DNA of 64,000 bases, from positions 1,154,391-1,218,390 of the forward strand of contig NC_016645.1 in the NCBI RefSeq assembly GCF_000234805.1, given 5' to 3'. Each line of letters starts with the position of its first letter. Position 1 is the first letter of the stretch. The stretch is from Pyrobaculum ferrireducens (GTDB taxonomy: Archaea; Thermoproteota; Thermoprotei; Thermoproteales; Thermoproteaceae). Below, piece by piece: positions 17,034 through 34,737 of this stretch. Both the position numbers and the translations under genes were made by a program. Below the pieces are notes generated by a model. That model did no database searches and had not been told where the DNA came from. It saw only the letters and a list, made by a program, of their open reading frames with translations.

Positions 17034-18092
17034 TTATGCCCACTCCTTGGTGTTTTGGCTCGGTTTTTGGAGAGGTTGTAAGACTTTGGTAATGTTCTCA
17101 AAGTCGCTTTTCTTATCGAGAGTTAGTCGTATTGCGACCACGTTATCGTCGCAGATGTGGACTGGCCTGGGGGCGATGTAGGCCAACACGGGCAGCGCGT
17201 CGCATATCTTGGCATAGTAGCTGGCTTGCCTCGCCCCTTCCTTTATGTAGTCGGGGTAGTCTGACGCCTTTACCTCTATTATGTGGGTGATTGCCCCCTT
17301 CTCGTTGCTTACCGCCACGTCGGCGAAGTCGCAAGCTGGACTCTTCCCGCATCTAGACAGGTCTAGCTGATAGTGTACAGACAGGCCGCCCCCCGACGCC
17401 TTTAGTTTACTCAGACGCTCTACCTCTACGTCCATGGCGCCAACGGCCTCGGCAACTAGGGCGAAGACGTAGATTTCGGCAAGTCTGTATAGGTACTCCA
17501 CACCGATCGCGCCCACATCTGCAGTCCCCACGAGCTTAAACAAGTGACGGTATTCGGGGCGTAGGTGCGGGAGCCGCGCCACAGCTTCTCCTATAGTTAC
17601 CTCGTCCCTTTCTAGTCTCACGGCGGCGAGCCATGTGTGGTGTAGCGCCGTCCTCAGCTCTCCACATAACCTCTGTCCTCTACAGCACCTCTCTGCGGCG
17701 TTTAACAAAAACTTCAGAAGTCTATTTTCCGGCGCGTTTAGCTCCGCGCTGTATACGACGTTCTCATAAAGACCGTATGGCAGGAGCCACAGGGCTCTGT
17801 CCCAGACGATTCCAAAGGCCTCAGCCCCTACGCGCCTTGTGGGTCTGCTGACGGCTGTCAGCGTGATGAGCCTCTTAAATATGCCCAAGACGTAGGCCCC
17901 TGTTAAGAGGAAGTGGGGACACAGCTCTGGGTAGAACCTACATACGCCGCCTCTACACGCGAAGGACAGAGCCCCGCGGAAGCCGGGCCCAGACTCCAAC
18001 TCAGAGAGCCCTAAAAGGCTCAGGGCTTGCAGCGCCACGTCGCTACTAGCCACGGCCTCGGCTAGGGTATCAGCCCAACCGCGGGCGGCCAT
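17034..18092 (-). CDS. McrC-like PD-(D/E)XK nuclease subunit
   Basis: 352 residues. The C-terminal third carries the nuclease core: CDFADVAVS (Asp), ITHIIEVKASDYPDYIKEGA (Glu-x-Lys), then QASYYAKI, which is the McrC/RecB arrangement D...E-x-K...Q-x-x-Y. The N-terminal 200 residues are helical with several cysteines (CRGGVCRFYPELCPH, CCRGQRLCG). It starts 12 nt after the stop of the McrB-like AAA+ gene and is clearly in the same operon, in the McrB-then-McrC order. Known: McrC is the nuclease that the McrB GTPase ring activates on modified DNA. Overall similarity to E. coli McrC is low, so the label rests on motif and context. Confidence 0.7.
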   Translation of the reverse strand: MAARGWADTLAEAVASSDVALQALSLLGLSELESGPGFRGALSFACRGGVCRFYPELCPHFLLTGAYVLGIFKRLITLTAVSRPTRRVGAEAFGIVWDRALWLLPYGLYENVVYSAELNAPENRLLKFLLNAAERCCRGQRLCGELRTALHHTWLAAVRLERDEVTIGEAVARLPHLRPEYRHLFKLVGTADVGAIGVEYLYRLAEIYVFALVAEAVGAMDVEVERLSKLKASGGGLSVHYQLDLSRCGKSPACDFADVAVSNEKGAITHIIEVKASDYPDYIKEGARQASYYAKICDALPVLAYIAPRPVHICDDNVVAIRLTLDKKSDFENITKVLQPLQKPSQNTKEWA

Positions 18093-18104
18093 GCCGTCGC
18101 CCTA

Positions 18105-19385
18105 TCAAGATTGGCGTTCACAGACGTTGCAGCCAAACCTCTCATCATATATGCCAAAGACGTTGCGGCAGGCCTCAGCCCGTTCAAACCCCTCGCGACG
18201 TAGCCTGGCGTAGTCGACAAAGTAGGCCCAACCAGGTAGGTAGTCCTCAGGCCTTATTGTCGAGCTGTTCCTTATACAGTCCTCTATGCGTTGCCACAAC
18301 TCCACCGCCTCGGTGAGAAGCTCATCGCCGAAGCGGAAGTACCTGAGGGCCTTCTCCACATGTTCTTTTCTTGGCGTTAGCACAACCCGCTTAAACCTCC
18401 TCTGTAGCGCAAAGCCTAGCCCTCCTAGGACGCCGATGTCGGCTGTATTTGCTGTGGCTACGAAGTAGACGTTGTTTAGATCTACAGTCCCAGCCTCGTG
18501 GCCAAGCTCAATCTTCTTGTCAGGCGTTGACAGCGCGGTAAAGACCTCTGCAAGAAAACGCTCTGGCTCTCCTCTGTTTATTTCATCAAGGAGAATTAAC
18601 ACCGGTGCGCGGCCCTCCACCTTCTGAAAACCCAGCCTTAAGATCTCTAAGGCTTTCCCTCTATCCTTGATTTGACCTAGGTAACCCGTCAAACTGATAC
18701 ATACTTTCTCCTCGACTTCTCTGGTCGTTACCTCACGCGTAAACAGCGTATACCCCTCAAGTTCAACGACGTAATACTTATTTTTATTGAGGATCCCACT
18801 GTAATATTCCTGAGGGCTTCCTAACTTTTTCAGGCATTCTTTCAGATCCTCTCCCTCCCAAACTTTATAGGAATTTTTGACGCGGGAGATCCCTACTAGA
18901 ACTTTCTCTGTTCTTCGGGATCTCTCTACCTTCTTCTCGACAGCGTGGATTACGCAGTCGCCCTGCTTTACTTCTGTCATGTATTTATAATGTAGTTTTG
19001 CCGGGCTCCATAAGATGCGGCCTACGTGCTTCTCGTCTCTTGTAACCTCGATAAAGAACTTGGGACAGGAGTAGTACTGTGATAATGCGGCGGTTTCCGC
19101 ACGCCTCACCGCCTCCAGCACCACGCCGTCTTTCCATACCGTTTCGCCGCCCTGCAACACGTAGCCCCCTATCAAGTCCATTCTACTAAACCAGCCGTGT
19201 ACGGAGACTTCGCGTAACATAGCGTTAAGCCTCTCCGCCAGGCAGCGCCCGAGGACCGTCTTTCCAGTGCCTGGAGGACCTAGAAGCAGAACTGCCTGGA
19301 ATTCCTTTAGTAGCTTCGAAGCATTTTCTATTAAATCATCTCCATATATTTCTGCCAGAAGTTGGCAACTGTCTACAGAGCTCAC
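18105..19385 (-). CDS. McrB-like AAA+ ATPase/GTPase with an inserted EVE-like domain
   Basis: 426 residues. Walker A GPPGTGKT 36-43; a GYVLQGGETVWKDGVVLEAV segment (74-93) typical of McrB/MoxR rings; Walker B LILLDEINRG 263-272; an McrB-type signature ATANTADIG 310-318 (usual MNTADRS); Arg-finger region ALQRRFKR 326-333. In ordinary McrB the helix at 93 leads directly into Walker B. Here about 140 residues (105-245) intervene and resemble an EVE/YTH-type modified-base reader: KFFIEVTRDEKHVGRILWSP, VKQGDCVIHAV, VLVGISRV, YYVVELEGYTLF. So the base-reading domain appears to sit inside the motor rather than at its N-terminus. Start GTG; TTTTTTAAGG lies 26 nt upstream. Operon with the McrC-like gene. 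Confidence 0.78.
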   Translation of the reverse strand: MSSVDSCQLLAEIYGDDLIENASKLLKEFQAVLLLGPPGTGKTVLGRCLAERLNAMLREVSVHGWFSRMDLIGGYVLQGGETVWKDGVVLEAVRRAETAALSQYYSCPKFFIEVTRDEKHVGRILWSPAKLHYKYMTEVKQGDCVIHAVEKKVERSRRTEKVLVGISRVKNSYKVWEGEDLKECLKKLGSPQEYYSGILNKNKYYVVELEGYTLFTREVTTREVEEKVCISLTGYLGQIKDRGKALEILRLGFQKVEGRAPVLILLDEINRGEPERFLAEVFTALSTPDKKIELGHEAGTVDLNNVYFVATANTADIGVLGGLGFALQRRFKRVVLTPRKEHVEKALRYFRFGDELLTEAVELWQRIEDCIRNSSTIRPEDYLPGWAYFVDYARLRREGFERAEACRNVFGIYDERFGCNVCERQS

Positions 19386-19572
19386 AAAACTTGAATAAAG
19401 ACACCTTAAAAAACCCTTGCCTCTCCTCGCCCTTACCTGGCTTCACGGTCAGCGCCTCATGGAAATATGGTGGTGTTCCAGAAGGGTTAATGTAGGGCTC
19501 GGCGCTTTACGTAACTGACGGTGTTTTACAGCGTCGCAGCCACAGGGAGACATTAAAAGATGGGATTTCCGT

Positions 19573-20877
19573 ATGGTAATGCTTGATTTGGAGGTGGCGT
19601 CCGCCGCCTCTCTGGAGAAGTACCTAGACGCTCTGTCCGTGAAGCTAACAGCCGCTGTTAGAAAGGCGAGCAGGTCCCTAGGCCTCAAGCCGCCTAGGAG
19701 AGTCGTGCTGTCTCTGAGGGGCTTTAGGGAACGCGACGTCGACGGTTTCTACTACGAGGACTACCCGCGGGAGCTCCCCCGGGGCGCCCGCGGAGACGTA
19801 TGCGGCTTCTACGACTGCGCGAGGCAGGAGATAGTCGTGTCCCTAGCCTGCGTAGGTAGAGAGGGGAACCGAAAGGGGGCTCTGATTAGGACTCTCGCCC
19901 ACGAGCTAGTCCACCACTGCCAGCACGTCGGGGGGCCGTTGTGTTCGCTACACTACACCTGTGAAGATCTCCGCAGAGTTAACCTAGAGCTACCGTACTG
20001 GCTGAGGCCTCACGAGGTGGAGGCCTACAGCAGAGAGGAGCCTGTGGAGCAGAGGTTGGCACACCTCCTCGCCCAAGCAGTCGAGAGGGTGCTAGCCGCT
20101 TTAGACATTAAGCTGGAGATCCACAACCCCCCGCCCCTCAGGGCAAACCTGCTGTTCGTAGAGCCGGGCGGGAAGGCGGAGCTGAGGGGGCCCGGCCACG
20201 TCGCTGAGTTACGGGGCCAGGTGAAGCTCGAGGCGCCGGTCCTCGTACACTGGCCCAATGACGTGGCCCCGAGCCATGGGGAGATCGTCAAGTTTAACTC
20301 ATTAAAGGGAGTATCGATTATCGAGATCGATCTAGTAAAGGGTATTCCTAGCGATGTAGAGGTGGTGTTCGGCGACCTAGCCGCTGAGCTGTACCACGTG
20401 CTTAAAGAAAAATACCGACTAGATATGCGGGGTGAGGTAATAGACAAATCGTGGGAATTTAATTGGGTGCTGTATAAAGAGTCTGATGAGATAAGTGTAT
20501 ACAACGATTATGTCGAGGTCGAGGAGTCATACCCCAGCACCCTATCTGATAAAGACTTCAATACCATGTACCCTATTAGGGTACTCATAGGGAGAAAAAC
20601 GAACACGAGTGACGAGCTGATAGCGAGAAAGGAAAAGAAGACGGCTTCGGAGTACGCGGCTTGGTACGAAGAAAGAAAGAGATTAATCTCCAAACTTCTG
20701 GAAGAGCTCGAACGTTCTAAAAGGAGATCAGTAGAGCTAACACTTAAACTAAATACTCCGTCTAGTGAGGGCAGAGTAGAGACAACACAACAAGAGACAC
20801 CGTCTGTTTCGTCAAGTGGTGGTCAAGAGACAAGCCAAGAATCGGATACCTCGTCAGATAAAAAGGCAAGTGGTTAA
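19573..20877 (+). CDS. Zincin-type metalloprotease-like protein (HELVHH)
   Basis: 434 residues. The zinc motif HELVHH is at 110-115 (RTLAHELVHHCQHVG), and a likely third ligand is in RPHEVEAYS near 150. The middle (200-300) is beta-rich, and the last 60 residues are a Ser/Thr/Glu-rich disordered tail (TTQQETPSVSSSGG). No family name is assigned. It is divergent from the McrB-like gene, sharing a 190-bp spacer, and so is probably part of the same island. A leaderless start would favour the ATG at 19579 (two codons in), given CATTAAAAGA at 19551-19560. It may process or regulate a defence component, which is inference from position only. Confidence 0.7.
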   Translation: MVMLDLEVASAASLEKYLDALSVKLTAAVRKASRSLGLKPPRRVVLSLRGFRERDVDGFYYEDYPRELPRGARGDVCGFYDCARQEIVVSLACVGREGNRKGALIRTLAHELVHHCQHVGGPLCSLHYTCEDLRRVNLELPYWLRPHEVEAYSREEPVEQRLAHLLAQAVERVLAALDIKLEIHNPPPLRANLLFVEPGGKAELRGPGHVAELRGQVKLEAPVLVHWPNDVAPSHGEIVKFNSLKGVSIIEIDLVKGIPSDVEVVFGDLAAELYHVLKEKYRLDMRGEVIDKSWEFNWVLYKESDEISVYNDYVEVEESYPSTLSDKDFNTMYPIRVLIGRKTNTSDELIARKEKKTASEYAAWYEERKRLISKLLEELERSKRRSVELTLKLNTPSSEGRVETTQQETPSVSSSGGQETSQESDTSSDKKASG

Positions 20878-21462: not shown

Positions 21463-22554
21463 TTATATGATTCTAAGTAAGTCACTTAGTGCTATTTCAT
21501 CCGCAGACTTTTCGGCAGTGTTTATTAGTAAGAAGGCTAAGACTGCGTCTCTGACGCCGTCGGCGGGTTCATAGTGGTTGTGGAGTTCTCTCATGCTTAG
21601 TTTTTGTGATTTTTTGATAGTGCCAGTTATGCGTACGGTTAGAGAGTTGTGTCTGACTAACGCCTCTTGTACTATGTTTGCTATTTTTTCTTGGGCTACT
21701 GCGAGGCTCCACATCTCGGCAAGGAGGCAGTTGCCTATTAGGGTTGAAATGAAGAAACCGGGTATGTATAGGTTGGTTTTACTGGCGATGCCGTGCAGCA
21801 AGGCCTTGGAGAAAGATGCGCCGATGCCTGTTTGCACTGTGACCTTTGCCCTCAAGCCTCCGCTTACCACAATTTTACCAAGCACCGGGTAGCTAGAGAT
21901 CTTTTCGTCTATTACGCTCGAAATTAGGTTTAGTGCGGATAGGATTGAGTATATGGCTGGTGCGACTTTCTTTGTGATCATGTTTTCGTGGAATTTATCG
22001 AAGTCCTCCCCAGCGTCTTTCATCTTTTCGCTAGCTTCTATCATCTGTTTTCTGAACCTCGAGGATCCGTAGAGATAGATGTGGGCAACTGTTGACCTGC
22101 TTAGGACGTGTTGCAGAATTATAGACTCGGCTAGATCTAGGAATGTGAGTTGCACAAGCGGCTCGTCTTTTATCTTGTACATCTCATGGAGCAAACTTTT
22201 CCAGTCATGCGCTGGAGATAGTGATAGTAGAAATGTCATTTGGCGTGCCACAATATTTCTAAACCACGTCTCGTATTCGGGGCCTACTTTGGAGACTTCC
22301 GAGATGGCTATATTCCACAATTCTTGGTACAGCGGGTCGTGTTCTAGGAATTTTTGCAATATGTAGCCAATGGTTGATGATTTTGCGATGATGTCGCTGA
22401 CCGCATGGACCTGACCGTCGAGAGAGAGGTAGCAACACCGGATAGTGGACTCTGTCCGTTTTTTTAGTCTGTCCCAATTATTCACTACTTCTGTCAGAAT
22501 TCGCTTGACTTCCTCCCTCGCTTCATGAATTAACTTGGTGTCAGCGAGCACCAC
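21463..22554 (-). CDS. Helical protein of unknown function, second gene of a pair
   Basis: 363 residues, mostly alpha-helical by composition. It has no P-loop, nuclease or cysteine motif that I can recognise. A segment of moderate hydrophobicity occurs near 265-285 (LYIPGFFISTLIGNCLLAEM). Its GTG start overlaps the stop of the 70-residue upstream gene by 14 nt, so the two are co-translated. The AT-rich base composition matches the neighbouring ATPase/proteasome-like pair and differs from the flanking GC-rich chromosome, suggesting shared foreign origin. Possible sensor or effector of the adjacent system, but this is a guess from position. Confidence 0.6.
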   Translation of the reverse strand: MVLADTKLIHEAREEVKRILTEVVNNWDRLKKRTESTIRCCYLSLDGQVHAVSDIIAKSSTIGYILQKFLEHDPLYQELWNIAISEVSKVGPEYETWFRNIVARQMTFLLSLSPAHDWKSLLHEMYKIKDEPLVQLTFLDLAESIILQHVLSRSTVAHIYLYGSSRFRKQMIEASEKMKDAGEDFDKFHENMITKKVAPAIYSILSALNLISSVIDEKISSYPVLGKIVVSGGLRAKVTVQTGIGASFSKALLHGIASKTNLYIPGFFISTLIGNCLLAEMWSLAVAQEKIANIVQEALVRHNSLTVRITGTIKKSQKLSMRELHNHYEPADGVRDAVLAFLLINTAEKSADEIALSDLLRII

Positions 22555-22753
22555 AGCGACTTCTCACTTCACTACTTACTCTGCTTACGACCATTTCCTT
22601 GATTTCGCTGTAAAAATCCTCAAGACCTTTTAGGATGGTTTCTCTATTTGAGAAGGTGGCTAAGAAGTGACCAGTTTCTACTAATTCTTCTCCAGCACCT
22701 AATGTGAGTATTCCGCCCTCGTTGGCTAGTTCAATGTCGCAGTCCACCTCCAC
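22541..22753 (-). CDS. Small acidic protein of 70 residues, unknown, first gene of a pair
   Basis: The frame runs from GTG 22753 (EVDCDIELANEGGILTLG) to RSRCGAR. A TATGTATAGATTTTAG element lies about 26 nt upstream, matching the leaderless pattern, and the stop overlaps the next gene. The N-terminal half looks beta, the C-terminal half helical. No homologous family is recognised. Confidence 0.5.
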   Translation of the reverse strand: MEVDCDIELANEGGILTLGAGEELVETGHFLATFSNRETILKGLEDFYSEIKEMVVSRVSSEVRSRCGAR

Positions 22754-22836
22754 ACTCTTTGTTTTTTTAGATCTAAAATCTATACATAACGTAATAGATT
22801 TACTATTACATTTAACCTTATAAATATATAACTTAC

Positions 22837-23838
22837 TTATTTTACTAGGTATTTTTTATAACTTCCTAGCTTTAGGGATTTGAGAAAGTTTTGAACGATT
22901 ATGCTTAACTCTTTGTTTTTTGGCACTTTGAGGTATAGTTCTTCACGAGTGTCGCTAAGTAGACTTTCTAGGTTTTCCTTGAGTTGGCTGAGGTCTGTGG
23001 ATCTATTGATTAGCTCGAATACGATACGTGGTGGCAATATTTCTAGCTTTTCCAGCAATTTCTTATCGGCATCTTCATCTGAATCATATAAATTTCTTAA
23101 GATTTTTTGATAATCTTCAGTTTTGTATCCAGTTAATTTATAAGTATTTGATATGCCTCGCGCTGGATGATCCTTTGGACACTCAGGTACACTAGTTCGA
23201 AGTTCTTTCACAACTTTAGCTCTCTGCATGAGGAGTAAAAGATATACATATTTTCCAGCATCATGTAGTTGTCGCATTTCTGTACATATCTCCTCAATTG
23301 ATCGCCTTAAATCTGTTGTGACACCCTCAAGTTGATCAATGATTATGTAAAGCGGTTCTTTAGACACTTCGCTGAATAACTCGTTAAATATTTTGACTAT
23401 ATTGCTATTTTCATAATCTATTTTTGTTAGTAATTCTAATCGATTAGGTAGATTTTCAATGTTTGTATCTATCTTGTACTCTTTATGGAGTCTCTCATGT
23501 GGTACGCCGGACTCATTAAATACATAGTGGAGATAATAGATTACATCACGTAAGCTAAGTAATTGCAAATCTGGTTTTCCCACAGTGTTTACTAATTCAT
23601 TAATATCAATATAGATATATTTTTTACCTTGTTCTCTTAATTTGCAAATAATATAAGCACCTACTCCGAATGTTTTTCCATAGCCATAGTATCCAACTAC
23701 GAAGTATAGCCTAGGCATTTGAGCATAGACTTTTTTTCCTACTGTGGTTTCGTATATGTGTTTGCCAAAGACTTCACATGTACTTATTTTATCTGACTTA
23801 ATGTGTAGAGCATCGCCAATTTTAGTTGGTGATGTCAT
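22837..23838 (-). CDS. P-loop ATPase (STAND/ORC-like) coupled to the proteasome-like gene
   Basis: 333 residues from ATG 23838 (MTSPTKIGDALHIKS). Walker A GYYGYGKTFG is near residues 48-57, Walker B LYIIIDQLEG near 160-169, followed by sensor-like LLLLMQRAKVV and a helical C-terminal region. It resembles the ORC/STAND group more than ring unfoldases such as PAN: no hexameric AAA second-region-of-homology signature was seen. A longer frame starts at 23919, but that would overlap the upstream gene by 98 nt; the chosen start overlaps it by 17 nt. Very AT-rich, like its partner. It may deliver substrates to, or be controlled by, the proteasome-like protein. Confidence 0.7.
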   Translation of the reverse strand: MTSPTKIGDALHIKSDKISTCEVFGKHIYETTVGKKVYAQMPRLYFVVGYYGYGKTFGVGAYIICKLREQGKKYIYIDINELVNTVGKPDLQLLSLRDVIYYLHYVFNESGVPHERLHKEYKIDTNIENLPNRLELLTKIDYENSNIVKIFNELFSEVSKEPLYIIIDQLEGVTTDLRRSIEEICTEMRQLHDAGKYVYLLLLMQRAKVVKELRTSVPECPKDHPARGISNTYKLTGYKTEDYQKILRNLYDSDEDADKKLLEKLEILPPRIVFELINRSTDLSQLKENLESLLSDTREELYLKVPKNKELSIIVQNFLKSLKLGSYKKYLVK

Positions 23839-24592
23839 TAGGATAGTTAAATAACTGACTATTAAGTTTTGTTGCAAGGGTGTTAAGCGTAGAGGCAATG
23901 TTCTGAAAAATCTCTTCATATTTAGTTAATATTTCTTTATTTTTATCTATAAAATTCTCTAACAAATAATATGATGTATTTTTGTAAATAAGGACATCAA
24001 ATGATCTTGATATGGACGTATTTGACTTATGGGCTACGTAGAAGATAAAGCCAAGGTTAACAATTGCGTCTGATATTGACGCGCATGGATCCTTAAGCTG
24101 TTCGCGTAGAATGTTGAGGAGATCGTTTGCTAGATTGCTGGCTGATCCAATTGCTATATAATCTTTGTAACCTTCACAAATTATATCAAATCTTGCTCTT
24201 TTCATTTCAGATGGTGAACATAGTATTATCTGTTTTATTTCTGTATTATCTTTTATATAGGCTATTAGAAATAGGAGCTCTACATATTCCTCAATTCCAA
24301 GTTCTATGAATATATTTCTAATATATCCACTGAGATGGACAGCTATTTCTGATTCGCCAACTCTTCGGAGCCTTTCAACTATATCAGAAAGTTTTTTGGT
24401 AATTATCTCACGTAGCTTTGCTATAGTGTTAACGTCACCGGCTGCAGTCATCACTCCGAGAAGTCCTCTTTTATCGCCTAGTGGATATATTTTCACCGCA
24501 ACATCACGGTATCTGCCGCTCGGCGTGCTCTCCCTCTTGTCTGCCAGCATGACGGCTCCATCTCTTGTGAGACATGCCACGGCTAGCATCAT
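23822..24592 (-). CDS. Proteasome beta-like (Ntn-fold) protein without the catalytic threonine
   Basis: About 256 residues. The N-terminus MLAVACLTRDGAVMLADKR, then VAVKIYPL and GVMTAAGDVNTI, aligns without gaps to proteasome beta/HslV-type subunits. Counting the second Met as position 1 puts Asp at 17, Arg at 19 and Lys at 33, the conserved active-site positions, but position 1 is Met, not Thr, with no propeptide cleavage site. It therefore looks non-proteolytic (alpha-like or regulatory) or uses another nucleophile. The C-terminal half is divergent and helical. Start: ATG 24592 is about 25 nt from the palindromic TATA element at 24612-24621; ATG 24604 and TTG 24631 are too close to or inside it. 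Followed by an overlapping ATPase gene. Confidence 0.7.
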   Translation of the reverse strand: MMLAVACLTRDGAVMLADKRESTPSGRYRDVAVKIYPLGDKRGLLGVMTAAGDVNTIAKLREIITKKLSDIVERLRRVGESEIAVHLSGYIRNIFIELGIEEYVELLFLIAYIKDNTEIKQIILCSPSEMKRARFDIICEGYKDYIAIGSASNLANDLLNILREQLKDPCASISDAIVNLGFIFYVAHKSNTSISRSFDVLIYKNTSYYLLENFIDKNKEILTKYEEIFQNIASTLNTLATKLNSQLFNYPNDITN

Positions 24593-24611
24593 GTTGTTTG
24601 GCATAACGTTT

Positions 24612-24621
24612 TTATTAATAA
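24612..24621. promoter_or_regulatory. Palindromic TATA element shared by divergent genes
   Basis: TTATTAATAA is its own reverse complement. It lies about 22 nt before ATG 24639 (nuclease, plus) and about 25 nt before ATG 24592 (proteasome-like, minus). One TBP site could serve both directions and co-regulate the two operons. Confidence 0.6.
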
Positions 24622-24638
24622 TTTTAGGCAACTATTGC

Positions 24639-26288
24639 ATGTATACGAATGGTGGCGAAGGTGAGGAATTGGTTGAGCTGAATAGATGTACAAGCAAGTT
24701 TGGAGAGCGCCCTCTTTTGATGCCGGTGAAGACAGTGGCTTTGGGGACTTCGTTTTGTCTTAAGAAGGCGTATTTTATGCTTATGGCTGATAACCTGCCT
24801 GGTAGCCATACGCCGTACAGACTTACAGCCACCAGCCAGAGTTTGCATGACCTGCTGGCGTATGTGGTTGTGCCCTTTACATTTAGGCTTCTTAGTGAAT
24901 ACTCGCCGCGGGTTGGTGGTGGAGTTGATGTAGATAGGTTGGTGGATGAGGTGTGGTCTGAGGTGAGAGGCGATGTTGAAAGGTATAGTAATGTTAATAT
25001 CAATTACCGGGATCTTAGGAAGACTCTTGTGTCTATGATGAGGGGATACGCTGCGGTGGTTATGTGGCTTGTGAAGTATGGGGGGTTTAGCGGTGATGGT
25101 ATTTTGGTATTTCCGGAGCGTATGATTGTGAGCAGACCTGTTTCTGACGTCTTGGCGGCGGAGGAGTTGGGTGACTTTCTCCCTGTGATTGGTGTACCAG
25201 ATGTGGTGCTTGTTGACAGGTCTAGCCGCCGTGCGGCTGTGATAGACTGGAAAATGGCCGGGGCCGGGTCTGGTAACGAGCTTCACTATGTCCAGTTATT
25301 GCTCTATCAACACATCCTAGGTAGGCTGTTCGGGGATGTGTATGCGTTCTTGGTTTACACAACAGAGAGGAGGGGCACCACTAAGGTTGTGTCGATTGGT
25401 AGGAATGTTAACTTGAAGGAGTTCGGCGTGAGTTACGACTATCGTGAGGTCTCCGACAGGCTGGAGAGGGCGAGGTACGTGGCTCAGCTTCTGTATGGCC
25501 TTGCTTTTTGTAAAGGTATGTTGAGGGTGGCTGTTGGGTTGAACAAGTCGCGTGGGTTGGGTATTCGTGTTTTTAACCCGGAGCGGGGTGTGGGGAAGAG
25601 GAATTACCCATGTAATTACTGTCCCTATAAAACGCTGTGCCGGTATAGGTTTTCTAGGAAGGGGGAGTTGGATGAGGAAATTGCTAGGCTGAGGCGTGGC
25701 TTTAATAAGATGTATAGGATAGCTGTTGAGAAGAAGAGTGAGGAGTATAAGAATCTAATCGATTTTGGTGCTTGTGTAGATTTTGACCAGATGGTGTTTA
25801 AGAGCCCTAGGGTTGTGGAGCTGGTAAAGTGGTTTGGGAGGGAGCCTAGGCCGCTGTCTGACGATGTGATGCGCTATTCTCTGGGTCGTACTACGGTATA
25901 TGTGTTTGGCGGCGACGACCCTCTTAGAGGTTCTCAGCAACGGGGTGTGTTTTCGCCTATCTTGTTTGGTAGGTATGAGGACGACGAGGTGGAGTTGAGG
26001 AGTGTCGGCGGCAGATCGCAGCTGACGGCGTATGTTAGGATGGTGTCGCCTGTATTTTCTGTGAGGTGGCTTCCTCTGTATATGTATTACAGAATTAGGC
26101 CTGGAGATAGGTTGTTTCAAAATGTTAAGGTGTGTAAGGGGGAGGTGCCGATGAATATCGAGTTGAGGGCGATAGCTGCTGTGGAGAATAGTTTGGTTAA
26201 GATGGTAGAGAAAGGCGAGGATTTGCATAGGTGGTGGAGTAGCTTCATAAAGGATCTGGTGCTTACCGCAGTTGATGAGTATGGCTAG
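24639..26288 (+). CDS. Cas4/RecB-like Fe-S nuclease (Dna2-type nuclease part)
   Basis: 549 residues. The RecB-family core is GVPDVVLVD (Asp188), VIDWKMAG (Asp203, Lys205) and YVQLLLYQ, the Q-x-x-x-Y motif (219-223). An N-terminal cysteine in SFCLKKAYF (Cys40) and a C-terminal cluster CNYCPYKTLC complete the four-cysteine pattern of Cas4/AddB iron-sulfur nucleases. A further 200-residue C-terminal region is not recognised. An upstream extension of the frame to 24306 overlaps the divergent gene and its promoter, so ATG 24639 is chosen. The helicase gene downstream overlaps the end, so the pair resembles a split Dna2 nuclease-helicase. Confidence 0.8.
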   Translation: MYTNGGEGEELVELNRCTSKFGERPLLMPVKTVALGTSFCLKKAYFMLMADNLPGSHTPYRLTATSQSLHDLLAYVVVPFTFRLLSEYSPRVGGGVDVDRLVDEVWSEVRGDVERYSNVNINYRDLRKTLVSMMRGYAAVVMWLVKYGGFSGDGILVFPERMIVSRPVSDVLAAEELGDFLPVIGVPDVVLVDRSSRRAAVIDWKMAGAGSGNELHYVQLLLYQHILGRLFGDVYAFLVYTTERRGTTKVVSIGRNVNLKEFGVSYDYREVSDRLERARYVAQLLYGLAFCKGMLRVAVGLNKSRGLGIRVFNPERGVGKRNYPCNYCPYKTLCRYRFSRKGELDEEIARLRRGFNKMYRIAVEKKSEEYKNLIDFGACVDFDQMVFKSPRVVELVKWFGREPRPLSDDVMRYSLGRTTVYVFGGDDPLRGSQQRGVFSPILFGRYEDDEVELRSVGGRSQLTAYVRMVSPVFSVRWLPLYMYYRIRPGDRLFQNVKVCKGEVPMNIELRAIAAVENSLVKMVEKGEDLHRWWSSFIKDLVLTAVDEYG

Positions 26289-27720
26289 TTTCTACAACGT
26301 TGATCGCCTATTGGAACAAAGATCTCTCGACGCTAGTTGGCGTTTGAAGGTGAACATGTATTCTATGGGTCCATACGCTGAGATCGGGAGGTATATAGAC
26401 GATCTCCTTGCTGGTAATCCATCAATTGTAGGTGTGCCAGGGGTGCCAGGTGCTGGGAAGACTACTTTCTACGCATATACGATGGCGAATTACCTGAGAG
26501 ATATTATTTGTGGAGGTGGGAGGTTAAAGACTTTGTATGTTTATTTGGCGCCGACTAATGATTTGCTTATAGACTTTCTCGAGAAGTTTCTTGGCTTTCT
26601 TAGAGGGGCTTTCCAAGTGGATTGTAGTCCGGAGGAGCTGGCTAGGAGAATTAGGGTGTATGGATCGAAAATAGAGGCTGACAAATATCCTCAGGTATTT
26701 AAGGCTGTAGACGACGATGTTCTTTTGGTCATATCGACTGAATGGCAGAGGGTGTCCGCGAGGGTTCTGAGCCCCCGTAATCAAGTCTATCTGATCGACG
26801 AGGCTAGTAGGTTGACGATGTCCCACTTCTTTATACCAATTGCCGACGGCATCGCTAAGGGGAGGCAGGACGAGGATATTCTTGGGTTTGCAGTAATAGG
26901 TGATGTGAACCAAGCGGTTGGCCTTAGTGAGGGCGAGCGACAACTATTACTGCTGGAACATGTGAAGCGGCTGTCTAAGGGGAGTGGCAGGGTGCACCTC
27001 GTAGATCTAAATATAAGTTGGCGGCTTCCAAGAGGCACAGAGGAGCCTATTAAAGAGGGGTATTATGATGGGAATCTCGAAGCTAAGGGCAATCCCTTTT
27101 TGTTAAAGGCACCTCATGAGGAGCTTAAGAGGATTCTCAGCGATGAGCACTGCAGAAGGTACGAGAAAGTTATAAATGAGTTTATCGTACTCGCCTCTAG
27201 GTATCCTCATGTGCATATTGAACTGGATACGCATTTCGTACAGGGTGAGAGGTATGACGAGCGTAGGGCTAGGCTTGCCTGGTGTCTTGCGCGTGTCATC
27301 TCTGCTCTTTCTAAAAAGAGGGTGTCTGTGGTCGTGCCTTATAACCAGATGGCATTTGCCGTGAGGATGCTGGGTAGACTAGAGAATGTGCATACCGCTA
27401 CGGTGGCGAGCTATCTGGGGAGGGAGGATGATATTATTATATCTGTGTTTGGGAAGGAACAAGTGGGTGGTTGTAATACCTACTATCTGCAGGATCCCTA
27501 CATTCCCAATGTTCAGCATAGTAGGCAGAAGAATGCCCTGTATTCTATAGGCTCTAGCGAGATTCTGCTGTCAAGCGTTGACGCTTGCAAAAAGCAGTTG
27601 GGGGGTAGTCCGAATAAGCGTTACAGTGAAGATGTGTATGAAGGTCTTGAGAAGCTTCACAAGATGATTGAAGAGTTGCAGAGGCTTGAGAAGAGGGTGG
27701 TCAGGGCGCGGGGCTTATGA
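26275..27720 (+). CDS. SF1 helicase (Dna2/UPF1-like)
   Basis: 481 residues. Motif I GVPGAGKTT (near 54-62), motif II YLIDEASRL (DEAx), motif III VIGDVNQAVGL, a Q/arginine motif LNISWRLPRG, motif V-like TATVASYLGREDDIIIS and motif VI NVQHSRQKNALYSIGS. This is the SF1B layout of 5'-3' helicases such as Dna2. The start (ATG 26275 or 26281) lies inside the last codons of the Cas4-like gene, so the two proteins are co-translated and probably form a complex that unwinds and cuts DNA. A defence or recombination role is inferred from the island context. Confidence 0.8.
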   Translation: MSMASFYNVDRLLEQRSLDASWRLKVNMYSMGPYAEIGRYIDDLLAGNPSIVGVPGVPGAGKTTFYAYTMANYLRDIICGGGRLKTLYVYLAPTNDLLIDFLEKFLGFLRGAFQVDCSPEELARRIRVYGSKIEADKYPQVFKAVDDDVLLVISTEWQRVSARVLSPRNQVYLIDEASRLTMSHFFIPIADGIAKGRQDEDILGFAVIGDVNQAVGLSEGERQLLLLEHVKRLSKGSGRVHLVDLNISWRLPRGTEEPIKEGYYDGNLEAKGNPFLLKAPHEELKRILSDEHCRRYEKVINEFIVLASRYPHVHIELDTHFVQGERYDERRARLAWCLARVISALSKKRVSVVVPYNQMAFAVRMLGRLENVHTATVASYLGREDDIIISVFGKEQVGGCNTYYLQDPYIPNVQHSRQKNALYSIGSSEILLSSVDACKKQLGGSPNKRYSEDVYEGLEKLHKMIEELQRLEKRVVRARGL

Positions 27721-28207
27721 CGAAGTTTTGCATATCTCTACGCACGTTTCGTCTTACTATTTTCCACTTTGCCAGCTGTGTAATCAGCTCGTCTACGCCG
27801 TAGTCTAGGGCTAGTGGGTGCTTGACTTTGTAGGTCTCCACGACAATGTGGCTTCTTGCGACTCTCGCCGCCTCTTCAAGCGCCACCGGCCAATGGATCT
27901 TGTCTTCTAGGAACATTAAGATGTGGGTTAGGAGCACAGCGTCGAATGATCTGTCGCGGAATGGCATGTGTGTTGGGTACGCTACTACGTCGGGTTTTGT
28001 GTCTGGTATTGAGTCCATCCGCACGGCCCATGCGCCCATTTTTTCTAGGTAGGTGGAATTGCGCCAGTTGCTACAGCCGAAGTCCAGCACTCTTTTAGGC
28101 GGGTTTTTTGTCGCTTCGAGGAGCATCTTGACTCCCGTGCTTCTGGGGCTTCTCTTGACTATGGGGCACTTGGCGCAGTAGTGTTGTCTAAGGACTCTTA
28201 TTCTCAC
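27701..28207 (-). CDS. SAM-dependent methyltransferase, class I, small
   Basis: 168 residues. Motif I RVLDFGCSNWRNSTYLEKMG binds SAM; an acidic post-I residue follows in VRMDSIPDTKPDVV, and FDAVLLTHILMFLED is the motif IV region. N-terminal cysteines (HYCAKCPIV) suggest metal binding. The GTG start shares GTGA with the stop of the upstream methyltransferase gene, so translation is coupled; the longer frame to 28270 is ignored. Substrate unknown: neither the DNA motif (N/D)PP(Y/F) nor PCQ is present, so it is not an ordinary DNA base methylase. The 3' end overlaps the convergent helicase gene by 20 bp. Confidence 0.75.
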   Translation of the reverse strand: MRIRVLRQHYCAKCPIVKRSPRSTGVKMLLEATKNPPKRVLDFGCSNWRNSTYLEKMGAWAVRMDSIPDTKPDVVAYPTHMPFRDRSFDAVLLTHILMFLEDKIHWPVALEEAARVARSHIVVETYKVKHPLALDYGVDELITQLAKWKIVRRNVRRDMQNFVISPAP

Positions 28208-29415
28208 AGCTCCACCACGGCTTGGTACTGGCTGTCTCCAAGCCTTCTTACAGCCTTTACGCGGCCCCACTTACTAGCAGTGTCTAGGAATTGGCGGTAG
28301 GCGACGTAGCGGCCGCTTAGCGCGTTGTACACCGAGAAGGCGACGGCCCTCTTTGCCACTCTCTTGATTTCTGCCACGGCCTCTTCTGGTCTGTGGAGGA
28401 AGTTGTAGACGTTCCAGAAGATGGCGACGTCAACGCCGCGGCTTCTTATTGGCAACATATGTGCGTCCCCCACGATTCGGTCTATCAGCAGTCCGTTTCC
28501 TCTCGCGCGCAGTATTGTCTCGTCTATGTCTAGTAGTATTACGTGCCGGGCGCCCCATCTTATCGTCGCCGCGCCCTTGGTGCCGAAGCCGCTTCCCACG
28601 TCTAGCACCACGGCGTCTCTGTAGTCTATCGCGGCTAGTATCGGCGGTATTGAGTACTTCGCCGCTCTGGATCTAACCACGGTGGGTCTGCCGCCTTTGA
28701 TAAGCGCCGGGTTTGGTGCTACGATGCCTCTCTCTGCAAGTTTCGTGATTTCATCCCACAGCTCTCTAGCCGGTAGCTTTGCCCCTACTCCGTATTGAGC
28801 TAATACGCTGTCTGCCGAGTATCCGCCGAATATCTCAAGCGTTGCTGGAAAGAGTACACGGAGTAGAGACACGACAAATGCTGTTTTCGCAACGTCCATC
28901 CCGGTGCACTCAGCCACCTTTTTGACAGGCGTGGGCCGTGTGGAGAGGCATGATATGGTTTTCGTCACGGCTCCTCCCAGGGGCGTTGCTGTCACAGCAT
29001 CCCTCCTCACTACTAAGACGTCGTTGCGTATCTCGGCAAGGCCCATGTCCACATATCGTCTCAATGGAGGCATCCTCCTAACATCCACGGCGCAGGGTAC
29101 CTCATACCTCCTCAGGTTCCCCACCTTCGCTCTTACAACGGCCACGATGTCCTCAACCCAGAAATTTACAGTCAGCATTTCTCCGTTGCCTACAAGGCGT
29201 GATACTAAGTCGCAGCTTACTTCATTGCTATGTGTTATCAATGGTGTCAACAAAAGCCGAGAGGCTGATGTAACGTTAATAATATCATTCCTAAGGTTTC
29301 CTAAAAGTTCTTGAACTCTGAGACATCTGTCACGCAAAAAGTATTGTGTATAAATACCGGTTGGTACCAACTGACGTGTCTCAGCTACTGGGCTTCTCCT
29401 TCTTAGAAGAGCCAT
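28204..29415 (-). CDS. Two-domain methyltransferase with unknown N-terminal region
   Basis: 403 residues. The last 150 form a class I methyltransferase: VVLDVGSGFGTKGAATIRWG (motif I), VILLDIDETILRARG (post-I), VDVAIFWNVYNFLHRPEEAV (motif IV). The first 250 residues include a possible winged helix (KKVAECTGMDVAKTAFVVSL) and otherwise match nothing I know. ATG 29415 has a TTTAAATAAG element 26 nt upstream on its strand, so the gene starts inside the 5' end of the divergent DndC-like gene, overlapping by 40-70 nt. Coupled to the small methyltransferase after it. Their joint substrate is unknown; given the DndC-like neighbour, nucleic acid is possible. Confidence 0.7.
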   Translation of the reverse strand: MALLRRRSPVAETRQLVPTGIYTQYFLRDRCLRVQELLGNLRNDIINVTSASRLLLTPLITHSNEVSCDLVSRLVGNGEMLTVNFWVEDIVAVVRAKVGNLRRYEVPCAVDVRRMPPLRRYVDMGLAEIRNDVLVVRRDAVTATPLGGAVTKTISCLSTRPTPVKKVAECTGMDVAKTAFVVSLLRVLFPATLEIFGGYSADSVLAQYGVGAKLPARELWDEITKLAERGIVAPNPALIKGGRPTVVRSRAAKYSIPPILAAIDYRDAVVLDVGSGFGTKGAATIRWGARHVILLDIDETILRARGNGLLIDRIVGDAHMLPIRSRGVDVAIFWNVYNFLHRPEEAVAEIKRVAKRAVAFSVYNALSGRYVAYRQFLDTASKWGRVKAVRRLGDSQYQAVVEL

Positions 29416-30560
29416 TCAGGGCGTTTGACGAGGCTTATTTAAAGTATCGTACTTTTGTGTTGGCGTTTTCGGGGGGCAAGGACTCAACAGCCGTTGCTGT
29501 TCTATTTTACAAGTGGCTAAAGGAGAGGGGGGTAAGGGATGTTGAGGTGGTGCTTCTCCACAACGACACGCTGAGCGAGATTCCAGACATGGAGACGTGG
29601 GCTAGGTACTTCATGGATCAGTTTGAAGAGAAGATGAAGAGTATCGGCATCGCCGTGAGGAGGATTGTGGCGGCTCCGTCGCCCCTCAACACCTGGTACT
29701 GGAGGGTGTATGTGAGGGGGTACCCCGCCTCGACGTTTAATTTTAGGTGGTGTGTTGATCTTCTCAAGGTGGAGCCTACTATGAGGGCGCTGAAGGAGTT
29801 GAGGGATTATATCCTGGTAGTGGGCTCACGCGACGAAGAGAGCGCGGCGAGGGCCAAGTCTATGCAAGTGAGGTTCGGCAAATGCATGAGGGAGGGGTCT
29901 TGTCTCGGAGCCTACTTCGCAGTAAATAACGACATTCCCAAGGTGGCTCCTATTAGGTTCTGGAGTCTGGAGGACGTGTGGCGGTTTTTAAAAACTCAGA
30001 GAGATTTTGATGTAAAGCCTCTGTTAAGGCTGTACCTCTTTAACGGGAATATGGGGGTGAGATACGGCTGTTGGCACTGTACCTTGGTAAAGAGGCAGTG
30101 GGGCAACTACATAGATGACAGATTTCTGTATGCAGAGGCTGTGAGGGTCTTGTACCGCGTGGTGTCTGATATGGAGACGTTGAGGACGCCGAAGTCGGGC
30201 GGCTATAGCAGGCTGGGCCCTATAAACGCCTTGGGCCGATCCATAATTTTCAATGCGGTGAGGAGGGCCGAGGAGCTAGGCGGCGAGATGTTCTACGGCC
30301 TCAACATAGAGGTCCAGCTACATAAACTGCATTACACGCTCCGTGTAATCTTTTATGAACTGAGCGAGAAATTAGCCGACGACATAATCTCGGCTTTAGA
30401 TCCCACGGATAGGAGGGTCTCTATCCACAATCTTCGGGATTTGAAGTCCAACGACGGGTGGAGGGAAGCTCTTGATGCTATTGAGTCCAGGGTGGTGAAG
30501 AGAGATGTGGATAATAGGGTTAGGGAGAGGCTTTTGGAGCTACTGAGACGCCTCTATTGA
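29346..30560 (+). CDS. DndC-like ATP-pyrophosphatase (PAPS-reductase fold)
   Basis: 404 residues. The PP-loop is AFSGGKDSTAVAV (42-48 SGGKDST). Blocks follow the DndC pattern: LHNDTLSEIPDM, FRWCVDLLKVEP (Cys136), ILVVGSRDEESAARAK, IRFWSLEDVWRFL, and RYGCWHCTLVKR (Cys242, Cys245), which with Cys136/180/186 could bind an Fe-S cluster. Known: DndC/SspD activates DNA for phosphorothioation. DndA, DndB, DndD and DndE are absent in this window, so this is a solitary relative; tRNA thiolation or another sulfur transfer remains possible. Two starts fit: GTG 29346, or GTG 29376, which lies 24 nt after TATAAATA (29349-29356). Confidence 0.78.
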   Translation: MYKYRLVPTDVSQLLGFSFLEEPFRAFDEAYLKYRTFVLAFSGGKDSTAVAVLFYKWLKERGVRDVEVVLLHNDTLSEIPDMETWARYFMDQFEEKMKSIGIAVRRIVAAPSPLNTWYWRVYVRGYPASTFNFRWCVDLLKVEPTMRALKELRDYILVVGSRDEESAARAKSMQVRFGKCMREGSCLGAYFAVNNDIPKVAPIRFWSLEDVWRFLKTQRDFDVKPLLRLYLFNGNMGVRYGCWHCTLVKRQWGNYIDDRFLYAEAVRVLYRVVSDMETLRTPKSGGYSRLGPINALGRSIIFNAVRRAEELGGEMFYGLNIEVQLHKLHYTLRVIFYELSEKLADDIISALDPTDRRVSIHNLRDLKSNDGWREALDAIESRVVKRDVDNRVRERLLELLRRLY

Positions 30561-30883: not shown

Positions 30884-30973
30884 ATGGCTTGCTATCCGGA
30901 GAGAGTGTTGCTTACGGACTGTCTGCGCAGTGTTGACAGTATTAGGAGGTTGCACCACGCTGGGTGCTTATGA
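30884..30973 (+). CDS. Leader mini-gene of 29 codons, coupled to the helicase
   Basis: It encodes MACYPERVLLTDCLRSVD and ends HHAGCL. It has three cysteines and no recognised family. It occupies the leaderless start position after the TATA region at 30851-30868, and its TGA overlaps the helicase ATG as ATGA. It may be a leader that sets helicase translation, or a tiny protein. The pattern repeats the 8705-8836 case. Confidence 0.4.
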   Translation: MACYPERVLLTDCLRSVDSIRRLHHAGCL

Positions 30974-33900
30974 GGCCCGCTCGGGAGGAGGCCAGAAAGT
31001 ACCGTAGCCTTGTCTTGTGTCCGCTGTTTAGAGAAGTCGTGGTGGATGAGCGGGCTGTTAAAAAGAGGACGGAAGCCCACGATGATTTCGTCAAGAAGGC
31101 TGTTTTACTTCTAAGCGAGATGGAGGGTGGTTGCCGCGAGCTGAGGCTGGATCTCGAGCGTGCGCAGCCTGACGCGGTTCTGGAGTGCGGCGATAAGATT
31201 TATGTCGTTGAGGTTAAGAGCTATCCGTTTGCTATCACAGATGAAGAGCACTACTGCTCTAGTGGCTACTTGAGACCTTACCCCGCCGATTTTGAACAAG
31301 CCGTCTCGTACAAAGAGAGGGCGCAGGCGCGTACAAGTAGGGAGATAGTACCCGTCTTGGTGTATAGGGGAATTCCGCTGGGAGGTCTGCGTGACGCGCC
31401 CTTTTTTATATTCATTAAAGAGGAGGAAGGAGAGTACCTGTCTGGTGGACATGTTGTAAGGGGCCGCGTTGCTTCTGAGGGGCAGATGCGCGGGGTGGAG
31501 CACGGCGTCTATAAACCGGGACCTGAGTGCTGTGTATGCGCGTCGGCGGACTGTCCCGTAGGGAGAAAAATGCGGAGCTATCTTGGTTGCGCTGGCGGCA
31601 GGAGTGGCGGCGGTGGGGTGTTGCAGTTGCCGACTGATGTTATATCGGCATATCAGAGGTTGCTGGTGACTGAGTGGTGTCTGGCTCGCCACGGCACTAG
31701 GTGCGTGAAGTGCGGTCCGATCTACTTGGCTCTGTCGCAGACAACTCTTCACAGGGACGATCTGCCTCTGACGAGGGAGCACGTACTGCGTGCTGTCGGT
31801 CAGCAACTTCTCCAGCAACTAGAGTCCAATAGGCTTTTAGTAGAGAAGTCCTGTGACGTCTATAAGGAGTCACTGAACAAAATAAAGATTAGGAACGGCT
31901 ATGTAGTTGCTGAGGGTGTAACGCGCAGAGACTTCTTAGTAATGCTTGAATACATATCGCTTCTCTACTCACTCGGGTATGGCGCCAGCGGTGGGGTGCA
32001 GAGCCTTCCTGTTCCGGATAAGTGCTACAGGACGTACCACGGAGAGGTTGCGAGGCTTGTGCGGAACACGTCGGCGTTGCCTGACGACGGAAGGGTTTTT
32101 GAAGCATACTACCTGCCAGCTATAGTTGACTACCTAGGCAAGAGAAATATCGACGTAGCAAGCGCTGTTACGAGTTCGTTCGGAGCTCTTTTAGGCGGGG
32201 ATGTCCTAAAAAAATTATCTGAAAGTTTGCGTAGCGAAGGCGGCCAAGCTGTTAGCAAGGTATCCCAGTTCCAAAATGAAGCTCTTATGGAGATTGGGAA
32301 GAGACTTAGCGCGTGGCTGACTGGTAGCGAAAAGAAGCCTCCTTTTGTGCTTATGACGGCGCCTCCCGGATCTGGGAAGACTCTTGTGTTTCTGGTTGCC
32401 GCGCTGGCCGTTGTTCTTGCTGGGGGGAAAGTCGTGATTATGTACCCAAGCAAAAAGCTTGCACTGCAACAAGTACAGCAAATCTACTACACACTGGAGG
32501 AGCTTAATAGCCAGCCTGGTAGTCGTATTTCCCTAGCTATACTAGATGGCGACAGCACCAGGTGTAGCCGAAGAAGACAAGGCCCAGTGCGCTCGCTGAA
32601 GTGCCGGCAGGGGCGGCACAGCTTAGAGTTCCAGAACGGTCAGTACCTCTGTGATGGGCAGTCAGTCGATTGGTTCACCGACTGTGAAGACGGCGCATTG
32701 AGCAGAGACATTATCGTGACGAATCCGTACAAGCTGTCTTCTATGCTTATGAGGAGTCAGAACGTCGCAACGATGCTGGCAGATAGGCTGAGACTGATCG
32801 TAATAGATGAAGCCCACACTATTCTCGAACCGCGGGAGCTCGATTTTCTGACGGCTCTTATTCACCGCCTGTTTATCCTTGGCGGAATTGATCGCGTTGA
32901 AAAGTATCCGGCCTTTATACTCTCCAGCGCTACTATAACTAGCTCGGGGCTTCCCTTTGCGGAAGAAGCCCGCGAGAGACTTATAACGTTCAGATCGATA
33001 GGTGCGCTTGAGCGTGTTGAGAGCGCCAGTCCAGCGGAGGTAAATGCTTTTACCAAACAAATCTCTGAGCTACTGCTTGGCGGAAATCTTGCGAATTATT
33101 ATGAAACCGCTGTTATAGACTACTACAGCATAGGTAGGCAGAGCTCAGGCAAGTCTAAAGTCACAGCCCCCATGGTGATTTTTACAAATCCGATGGAATC
33201 TCCCAGCGGCACTGTTCAAGAGGCATCGGTTTCGCTAATGCTGGCCGCCGCAACCAGGTTATATTCAGGTGGTCAGTATAATAATTTCTCTTCGGTTGTA
33301 TTTTTCGACAGCAAGGAGACACTGGCTGAGGTTGCATCATACGTAAGAGCGAGACTTGTGTCTATAGAGGGATCGCCGGCTGATAAAACTCTGACAAAGC
33401 CCTTCTTCCTAAATTGCACCCCCGGCTCTCTGTGTATTAAGGGCGGCTGGAACGGCCTTAAGGTAATAAAAAACATCCTAATGTCAGGTAGCTACGGAGA
33501 GCTAGAGGACTTCAGCCACCTATCTCTGTTCTGCACCAGACTTAGCGAGCTGAACGCGGCATACAAATACGCATCAATGATGTATTCTGGACAGCGTGCG
33601 GCCTCGGCGCAACCTCCTAAGTGCTATGATACGGCAAGACAAGCCGCGGAGCAAATATTAAGAGATCTTATCCAGAACGTCAGTAATCTGAGCCAGAGGA
33701 GCACTCTCCTGGTGCACCACGCGGACTTGGAAGATTCTATAAGATACGCGGTAGAGAGGAAGCTGGAGATGCCGGGGTCATGGTACACTGTCCTGTCCAC
33801 ATCTACTCTTGAGCTTGGTGTGAACCTCAGCGGCGTTGGAGCCGTGGGCCAGTTCGGCCTGCCGTGGCTTGCTGAGAACGTGATTCAGCGCTTCGGTCGC

Positions 33901-34737
33901 GGCGGGAGAGATGAAAGCGTTTTGTACTCCACAGTTGGATTTCTGTTTGCGAAGAATACAGGCGAAGACGTAGCGCTCATAGATGAAGATTATGCAGTAG
34001 CAAGGCTATTTGCATTCAAGAGAACCGTCCTTCCGCCGCGTAACATTGATAGGCTAATGAGCATCGAAGAGCTTATAGCATATACAGTGTTCCGTGCTAC
34101 AGGTGGTAACGAGCAACAAGTTCTCCATGCAGTACAGAACTCTATAAACTACTTAGGAATTCCTAATAATACTGCTCCTGAGATTTTCAATAGAATCAAT
34201 ATAATCTTTCCAGTTATGGTGCAAATAGCATCCCAGCAGATTTCTTCACAGCGATCAACATCCCTAAACAATTACAAGTCACAGATTAGCTTTATGTTGG
34301 GGACATTATGTAGTCAGTTAGGCAATTATGGCGGTGTCCAGCTTCAGCAAATGTTGGTAAATGTTTGCAAACAGTATAAGGATCATCTGTTAAAGTTTGC
34401 CTGGGAGATCTACTACACAATTACACAAGTTATAAATAATGATCAAGCGTGGATGCAGGCTGGATCTATGCAACGTACACTCCTGAAACTCCAGGACAAA
34501 ATATTAGGGATGATTCTTCAATATTATCCGAGTAGTAGTACACGAAGAGATATCGGTAGGCTTCTTCAACTGTCGCTAATTCCGCCGATGCCCGATCCCC
34601 GCATTATAGATGTTACCCTAAATAAATACAGTATTTCAGCTAGATATCGACAGGGATATAAAGTTTCGAATTCATCACTAAGGGAGGCGTATGCTAGGTC
34701 AATTCCTCTTAAAGTAGACAGATACGAAGAACTATGA
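30970..34737 (+). CDS. Large nuclease-helicase: PD-(D/E)XK domain plus SF2 DExH helicase (DrmA/Lhr-like)
   Basis: About 1,255 residues. The N-terminal nuclease core is AQPDAVLE (Asp near 68) and IYVVEVKSYPF (Glu81, Lys83), followed by a cysteine cluster PECCVCASADC at about 180-190, as in Fe-S nucleases. The SF2 motor has motif I APPGSGKT (~465), DEAH in VIDEAHTIL (~613), SAT in FILSSATI (~655), a C-terminal TSTLELGVN block and motif VI QRFGRGGR (~973). Size and order recall DISARM DrmA-type or Lhr-type helicases, but the fused nuclease is unusual. ATG 30970 overlaps the mini-gene stop; GTG 30964 is the alternative. The DUF1998/DrmB-like gene follows with an ATGA overlap. Confidence 0.8.
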   Translation: MRPAREEARKYRSLVLCPLFREVVVDERAVKKRTEAHDDFVKKAVLLLSEMEGGCRELRLDLERAQPDAVLECGDKIYVVEVKSYPFAITDEEHYCSSGYLRPYPADFEQAVSYKERAQARTSREIVPVLVYRGIPLGGLRDAPFFIFIKEEEGEYLSGGHVVRGRVASEGQMRGVEHGVYKPGPECCVCASADCPVGRKMRSYLGCAGGRSGGGGVLQLPTDVISAYQRLLVTEWCLARHGTRCVKCGPIYLALSQTTLHRDDLPLTREHVLRAVGQQLLQQLESNRLLVEKSCDVYKESLNKIKIRNGYVVAEGVTRRDFLVMLEYISLLYSLGYGASGGVQSLPVPDKCYRTYHGEVARLVRNTSALPDDGRVFEAYYLPAIVDYLGKRNIDVASAVTSSFGALLGGDVLKKLSESLRSEGGQAVSKVSQFQNEALMEIGKRLSAWLTGSEKKPPFVLMTAPPGSGKTLVFLVAALAVVLAGGKVVIMYPSKKLALQQVQQIYYTLEELNSQPGSRISLAILDGDSTRCSRRRQGPVRSLKCRQGRHSLEFQNGQYLCDGQSVDWFTDCEDGALSRDIIVTNPYKLSSMLMRSQNVATMLADRLRLIVIDEAHTILEPRELDFLTALIHRLFILGGIDRVEKYPAFILSSATITSSGLPFAEEARERLITFRSIGALERVESASPAEVNAFTKQISELLLGGNLANYYETAVIDYYSIGRQSSGKSKVTAPMVIFTNPMESPSGTVQEASVSLMLAAATRLYSGGQYNNFSSVVFFDSKETLAEVASYVRARLVSIEGSPADKTLTKPFFLNCTPGSLCIKGGWNGLKVIKNILMSGSYGELEDFSHLSLFCTRLSELNAAYKYASMMYSGQRAASAQPPKCYDTARQAAEQILRDLIQNVSNLSQRSTLLVHHADLEDSIRYAVERKLEMPGSWYTVLSTSTLELGVNLSGVGAVGQFGLPWLAENVIQRFGRGGRDESVLYSTVGFLFAKNTGEDVALIDEDYAVARLFAFKRTVLPPRNIDRLMSIEELIAYTVFRATGGNEQQVLHAVQNSINYLGIPNNTAPEIFNRINIIFPVMVQIASQQISSQRSTSLNNYKSQISFMLGTLCSQLGNYGGVQLQQMLVNVCKQYKDHLLKFAWEIYYTITQVINNDQAWMQAGSMQRTLLKLQDKILGMILQYYPSSSTRRDIGRLLQLSLIPPMPDPRIIDVTLNKYSISARYRQGYKVSNSSLREAYARSIPLKVDRYEEL

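Follow-up and report, generated by a model that had tools for sequence, protein, structure and literature searches.

Twenty-two new proteasome homologues were described by Fuchs et al. (PMC8665760), who found them through weak matches inspected for kept active-site residues and reported neither an informative gene context nor an AAA+ partner for them. In crenarchaea the beta rings of the 20S proteasome are hetero-oligomeric and contain an inert structural beta subunit, and one beta subunit of Sulfolobus acidocaldarius seems to be catalytically inert and to have a structural role (PMC4569737). In DndCDEA-PbeABCD and other Dnd phosphorothioate systems, a DndC-like sulfurtransferase is encoded beside helicase, nuclease, and ATPase genes (PMC6459918, PMC10853773). 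Crenarchaea are mentioned in neither of these two papers, and the proteasome is not mentioned in PMC10853773. A search of the literature for proteasome-like proteins in archaeal antiviral defence found nothing fitting.

The window, that is, the whole stretch of 64,000 nucleotides that was analyzed, contained a cassette (21463-30560) of genes for a DndC-like sulfurtransferase, two SAM methyltransferases, a helicase, a PD-(D/E)XK nuclease, an ATPase, and a protein X, together with a gene for a proteasome-like protein, P0001:

21463-22554, minus strand: cassette protein X, 363 aa, no known domain, conserved in the cassette
22541-22878, minus strand: C-terminal part of the ATPase P0002, read in a different frame; the full-length relative in L022 has a homologous C-terminus
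22837-23838, minus strand: ORC/STAND-like P-loop ATPase P0002, core frame, with Walker A GYYGYGKT and Walker B YIIIDQLE; the frame ends early
22852-22857, minus strand: A6 run at or near the switch of frame in the ATPase gene, which may reflect a sequencing error, -1 slippage, or a true lesion
23822-24592, minus strand: proteasome-like protein P0001, 256 aa from the ATG at 24592, with Met at the Thr1 position, Gly47 replaced by Ala, and a C-terminal helical tail
24612-24621, no strand: palindromic TATA-like box TTATTAATAA, a perfect palindrome, 27-29 nt upstream of the P0001 gene (minus strand) and the nuclease gene (plus strand)
24639-26288, plus strand: PD-(D/E)XK nuclease with a cysteine cluster (Cas4/AddB-like)
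26272-27720, plus strand: SF1-type helicase
27701-28270, minus strand: small SAM-dependent methyltransferase
28204-29415, minus strand: large SAM-dependent methyltransferase
29346-30560, plus strand: DndC-like PAPS-reductase/sulfurtransferase

The reading of P0001 that we favor, and to which we give about an even chance, is that it has the proteasome fold, has lost catalysis, and acts with the cassette ATPase as a regulator or scaffold.

The cassette differs from the Dnd systems in its two SAM methyltransferases and protein X, and its DndC-like protein missed the DndC equivalog level (TIGR03183, 99.4 vs 290.4 bits). PbeC is SMC-like, whereas the window ATPase is not; PbeC had been considered as the family of this ATPase after a weak PADLOC match (E 0.003) and was rejected because it is described as SMC-like and the homologues of the window ATPase had no PbeC match. 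PADLOC neither labelled the cassette as a system nor gave a match for P0001, in agreement with an earlier note on this DNA, which knew of no standard defence system with a proteasome-like and ATPase gene pair; the defence-type surroundings that it described were likewise supported. The cassette is a candidate new modification-linked defence system, and it may deserve more attention than the proteasome-like gene.

In genome G030 a relative of the ATPase (E=1.5e-35 to P0002) adjoined relatives of X, the nuclease, the helicase, both methyltransferases, and the DndC-like protein, and all seven cassette genes were also present, in other orders, in G032 and G025. Complete cassettes were those of four Thermoproteales genomes (the window and loci L022, L023, and L032). 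Fragments were found in G021 and G040, and when 398 genomes of the phylum were searched with the large methyltransferase there was no further strong match. CRISPR-like repeats, with YYLLISG repeating in translation, lie beside the G030 cassette (L022 881-1441).

The proteasome-like gene was absent from all three other complete cassettes, and in G030 nothing intervenes between the ATPase and nuclease genes, whose starts are 71 bp apart. The proteasome-like and ATPase genes had been taken for a free-standing pair, a view that does not hold, since the ATPase belongs to the conserved seven-gene cassette, which elsewhere lacks the proteasome-like gene; the same pair was searched for in other Thermoproteales and none was found. 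Homologues covering P0001 numbered zero in the order (45 genomes), the phylum (398 genomes), genome contigs, viral contigs, and phage records. Viral scans with ATPase, nuclease, beta, and divergent-family queries found no relatives, and the helicase alignment, scanned against genome contigs, matched nothing but a Pedobacter sequence, and that weakly. By these searches P0001 appears to be a singleton, so there is no conservation that would show selection on the protein or on its pairing with the ATPase, and its function is inferred. GC content was 0.37 in the P0001 gene and 0.34 in the ATPase gene, compared with 0.46-0.53 in the other cassette genes, which suggests that the P0001-ATPase block was acquired separately or replaced. 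The P0001 gene itself looks like a recent AT-rich addition to the cassette.

The P0001 frame extends from 23822 to 24631 (minus strand), starts with TTG, and contains in-frame ATGs at 24604, 24592, and 24589, the second of which is Met14 of the TTG-started frame. It is intact over 257 codons at 37% GC, an occurrence whose probability by chance we estimate from base composition at about 1e-8. The TATA-like box begins ~29 nt upstream of the ATG at 24592 and is only ~17 nt from that at 24604; in this genome the corresponding distance is 27-28 nt for alpha, beta1, beta2, and the large methyltransferase. Because of this spacing, as the earlier note had argued, the best start is probably the ATG at 24592, without a leader; leaderless transcripts are reported to be the majority in Pyrobaculum aerophilum (PMC3160421). 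The protein from this start is MMLAVACLTRDGAVMLADKRESTPSGRYRDVAVKIYPL, and the possible upstream extension, LPKIINKNVMPNNM, contains no Thr, Ser, or Cys. On the opposite strand, the TATA-like box also stands ~27 nt ahead of the nuclease start codon, the ATG at 24639, so the divergent operons of P0001 and the nuclease probably share one symmetric promoter.

Read from the ATG at 24592, P0001 begins M(0) M(1) L A V A C L T R D G A V M L A D17 K R19 ... V K33 I Y P L. Alignment confirmed the claim that it matches the start of beta subunits without gaps (over the first ~35 residues), keeping Asp17, Arg19, and Lys33 (proteasome numbering) with Met at position 1. By eye, YIAIGSAS and SFDVLI in P0001 resemble YIATGSGS and GIDVVVI in beta2. 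The proteasome family model PF00227 matched residues 17-170 (E=0.00098, 19.2 bits), under its gathering cut-off of 22.4, as was likewise the case for the Thr1-bearing relative L065 (20.2 bits). PF00227, scanned against the order, brought up additional divergent proteins of about the length of P0001 in G040 and G041, and a profile of these found further members in the phylum. Compared with this divergent archaeal family by hhalign, P0001 scored 33.7 (E 3.6e-4) and the maximum of 60 shuffles was 19.0; with three alpha/beta profiles it scored 19.7-25.2, and the shuffle maxima were 18.6-22.8. The HMM of the divergent family gave P0001 11.4 bits, level with true alpha/beta subunits, and gave the top unrelated ORF of 929 4.8. 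With a superfamily HMM built from alpha/beta and divergent relatives, P0001 had E=1.3e-4 and the best unrelated ORF among the 929 had E=1.5.

It is very unlikely that P0001 is no proteasome relative and that its N-terminal stretch resembles one by chance. Most of the similarity sits in residues 14-90, and chance would be consistent with the missed gathering cut-off, with the C-terminal 199 residues, which alone matched no proteasome model, and with single-sequence AlphaFold models of pLDDT 40 (pTM 0.27 and 0.40), for which Foldseek found nothing significant. It is at odds with the three profile tests and their shuffle or decoy controls, and with a blind P0001 search of the 398 genomes, whose weak matches included the canonical beta subunits L010, which adjoins an alpha gene, and L011. 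The low-confidence model is weak evidence in the same direction: the Ntn fold that the earlier note had proposed to look for was not confirmed at this pLDDT, but the order of strands and helices is compatible with it, and a helical tail is predicted at residues 217-262. The profile tests separate P0001 from all unrelated ORFs and support a proteasome-like ancestry, as the note had supposed.

The nearest relatives of P0001 are archaeal proteasome homologues of ~270 aa (L064, L065, L069, L070, L071), which resemble it in length, in a Met-x-Leu/Phe start, in D17, K33, and the GxGD region, and in a helical C-terminal tail, and which gave the best hhalign score. They differ in that all have Thr1 and Gly47 and none is in the window cassette, and the similarity of P0001 to them is very low beyond the first 90 residues. 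They may correspond to the ACC group or the WPH group in the work of Fuchs, Alva and Lupas 2021 (PMC8665760). The neighborhoods of the Thr1-bearing relatives had no genes in common with the window cassette. At two loci (L111 2944-7960 and L112 5457-9734) a Thr1-bearing homologue lies behind a similarly arranged gene pair, whose products of 359-386 aa and 613-658 aa matched no Pfam model, and at a third (L110 3998-9265) a 954-aa STAND-like NTPase gene lies upstream of such a homologue with a transposase gene between.

All five relatives with an intact N-terminus start Met-Thr and have Gly at the oxyanion-hole position 47, whereas P0001 has Met instead of Thr1 and Ala at position 47 (VMTAAGD vs VAAGAGD in relatives). 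The equivalents of Asp166 and Ser169 are Asn and Ile in a manual alignment to beta2. The loss of the nucleophile together with the second active-site change at Gly47 argues for a pseudoenzyme, and the active site of P0001 is probably dead. A sequencing error at the Thr1 position, for which a single ACG to ATG change would do, was considered and set aside, because the second change makes a simple error unlikely. The earlier note had also raised a different nucleophile, and P0001 might be active by another nucleophile or mechanism, for example with Cys6, the Met1 alpha-amino group, or a residue contributed by the ATPase. Retention of Asp17, Arg19, and Lys33 would fit such activity, but non-catalytic subunits also mostly retain Lys33 and a charge at residue 17, Cys6 is five residues into the first strand, and with the oxyanion-hole Gly47 replaced as well as position 1 we regard this as very unlikely.

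Crenarchaeal 20S beta subunits, both catalytic beta2 and inert beta1, share with P0001 the superfamily and the gap-free N-terminus. In the same genome, catalytic beta2 starts MTTTVG, with no propeptide, and beta1 reads GATAVG, with Ala in the Thr1 column and Glu at 17. Thus the lack of a propeptide in P0001, to which the note had drawn attention, is real but ordinary, since relatives and the host catalytic beta also start Met-Thr; nor is the loss of Thr1 unique in kind, given beta1 and the apparently inert subunit of S. acidocaldarius (PMC4569737). P0001 is unlike these subunits in having no Thr1 or, by the manual alignment, Ser169 and Asp166 equivalents, in its long C-terminal tail, in its defence context, and in its weaker profile score. 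P0001 could be a variant beta-like subunit, inert or poisoning, that enters the host 20S proteasome and tunes or blocks proteolysis during infection. Hetero-oligomeric crenarchaeal rings with an inert structural beta (PMC4569737), the beta1 of this genome, and the leaderless, beta2-like start of P0001 are consistent with this, but the idea is improbable: in profile comparison P0001 resembles the divergent ~270-aa family more than it does alpha/beta (33.7 vs 18-25), the gene lies within a DNA-handling cassette, and the tail is absent from the alpha and beta subunits of the genome.

The Walker A and Walker B motifs of P0002 were conserved in four homologues, and no STAND or AAA Pfam model reached its cut-off (best nSTAND_NTPase5, 17.1 vs 34 bits). 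The overlap of the ATPase and P0001 genes that had been noticed is real, but the likely ATPase start is the ATG at 23838, which gives an overlap of 17 bp, and not 23919, which would give 98 bp. Similarly, the P-loop ATPase is closely coupled to P0001 as claimed, but the ORF as given ends early by a frameshift, and the C-terminus runs on in the other frame to 22541. The homologous ATPases are longer (432-543 aa), and the product of 22541-22878 matched the C-terminus of the L022 relative with a Smith-Waterman score of 68 (best of 1000 shuffles 57) and a BLAST E of 7e-06. The P0002 ORF and a 70-aa ORF are probably one gene.

The broken frame bears on the main rival explanation, which is possible, on the unlikely side: an AT-rich block (the P0001 gene and most of the ATPase gene), obtained by horizontal transfer or recombination, is being lost, with the replacement of Thr1 by Met and the ATPase frameshift as early damage, and neither gene of the pair now has a function. 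The break at the A6 run with the remainder in another frame, the absence of the P0001 gene from every other genome searched, and the single base change that turns Thr to Met would all be in keeping with decay. However, the frameshift lies in a homopolymer, so it may be a sequencing error or programmed slippage; the P0001 frame is intact, with a normal leaderless promoter and Asp17, Arg19, and Lys33 kept; and the frames of the X, nuclease, helicase, methyltransferase, and DndC-like genes are also intact.

For P0001 as a dead regulator or scaffold, the short overlap with the ATPase gene and the promoter-like box in common with the nuclease would represent coupling, and the apparently inert beta of S. 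acidocaldarius (PMC4569737) and the beta1 of the same genome may serve as precedents. Against it, the broken neighboring frame could mean decay, the three other cassettes presumably work without a proteasome-like gene, and P0001 is a singleton whose similarity is confined mostly to residues 14-90 and whose low-confidence models had no significant Foldseek match. As such a regulator, P0001 would not cut but would retain its fold along with the surfaces used for interaction (in rings or dimers, and at the C-terminal helix), and would bind the cassette ATPase as a regulatory or scaffold subunit. The ATPase would sense foreign DNA or protein, and its ATP-driven rearrangement would be passed on to the co-expressed nuclease and helicase of what may be a nuclease-helicase cassette linked to sulfur or methyl modification. 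A nucleophile-less homologue that overlaps an ATPase gene and has its promoter in common with a nuclease would give a protein of this kind a testable role, and P0001, if so coupled, would show that the proteasome fold can be used for something besides cutting. More tentatively, and with considerable doubt on our part, the sulfur/methyl-modification-linked nuclease-helicase cassette may be an undescribed defence system of Thermoproteales in which P0001, a pseudoprotease with the proteasome fold, has been recruited as a sensor or switch subunit under the control of the ATPase. P0001 would then be the first homologue of the proteasome to combine a DNA-directed role with a non-unfoldase ATPase that is dedicated and genetically coupled to it.

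Elsewhere in the window, within 17034-20877, an McrB-like AAA gene (18105-19385) has a partner in the McrC position (17034-18092), and the gene at 19573-20877 encodes 434 aa that include an HELVH motif like that of zinc peptidases. At 30964-36785, a DEAD helicase of 1257 aa, which matched the NERD nuclease weakly and gave SngC/BrxH-like PADLOC matches, is followed by a 683-aa protein with no domain match. A single ORF of 4608 aa occupies 49020-62846 on the minus strand.
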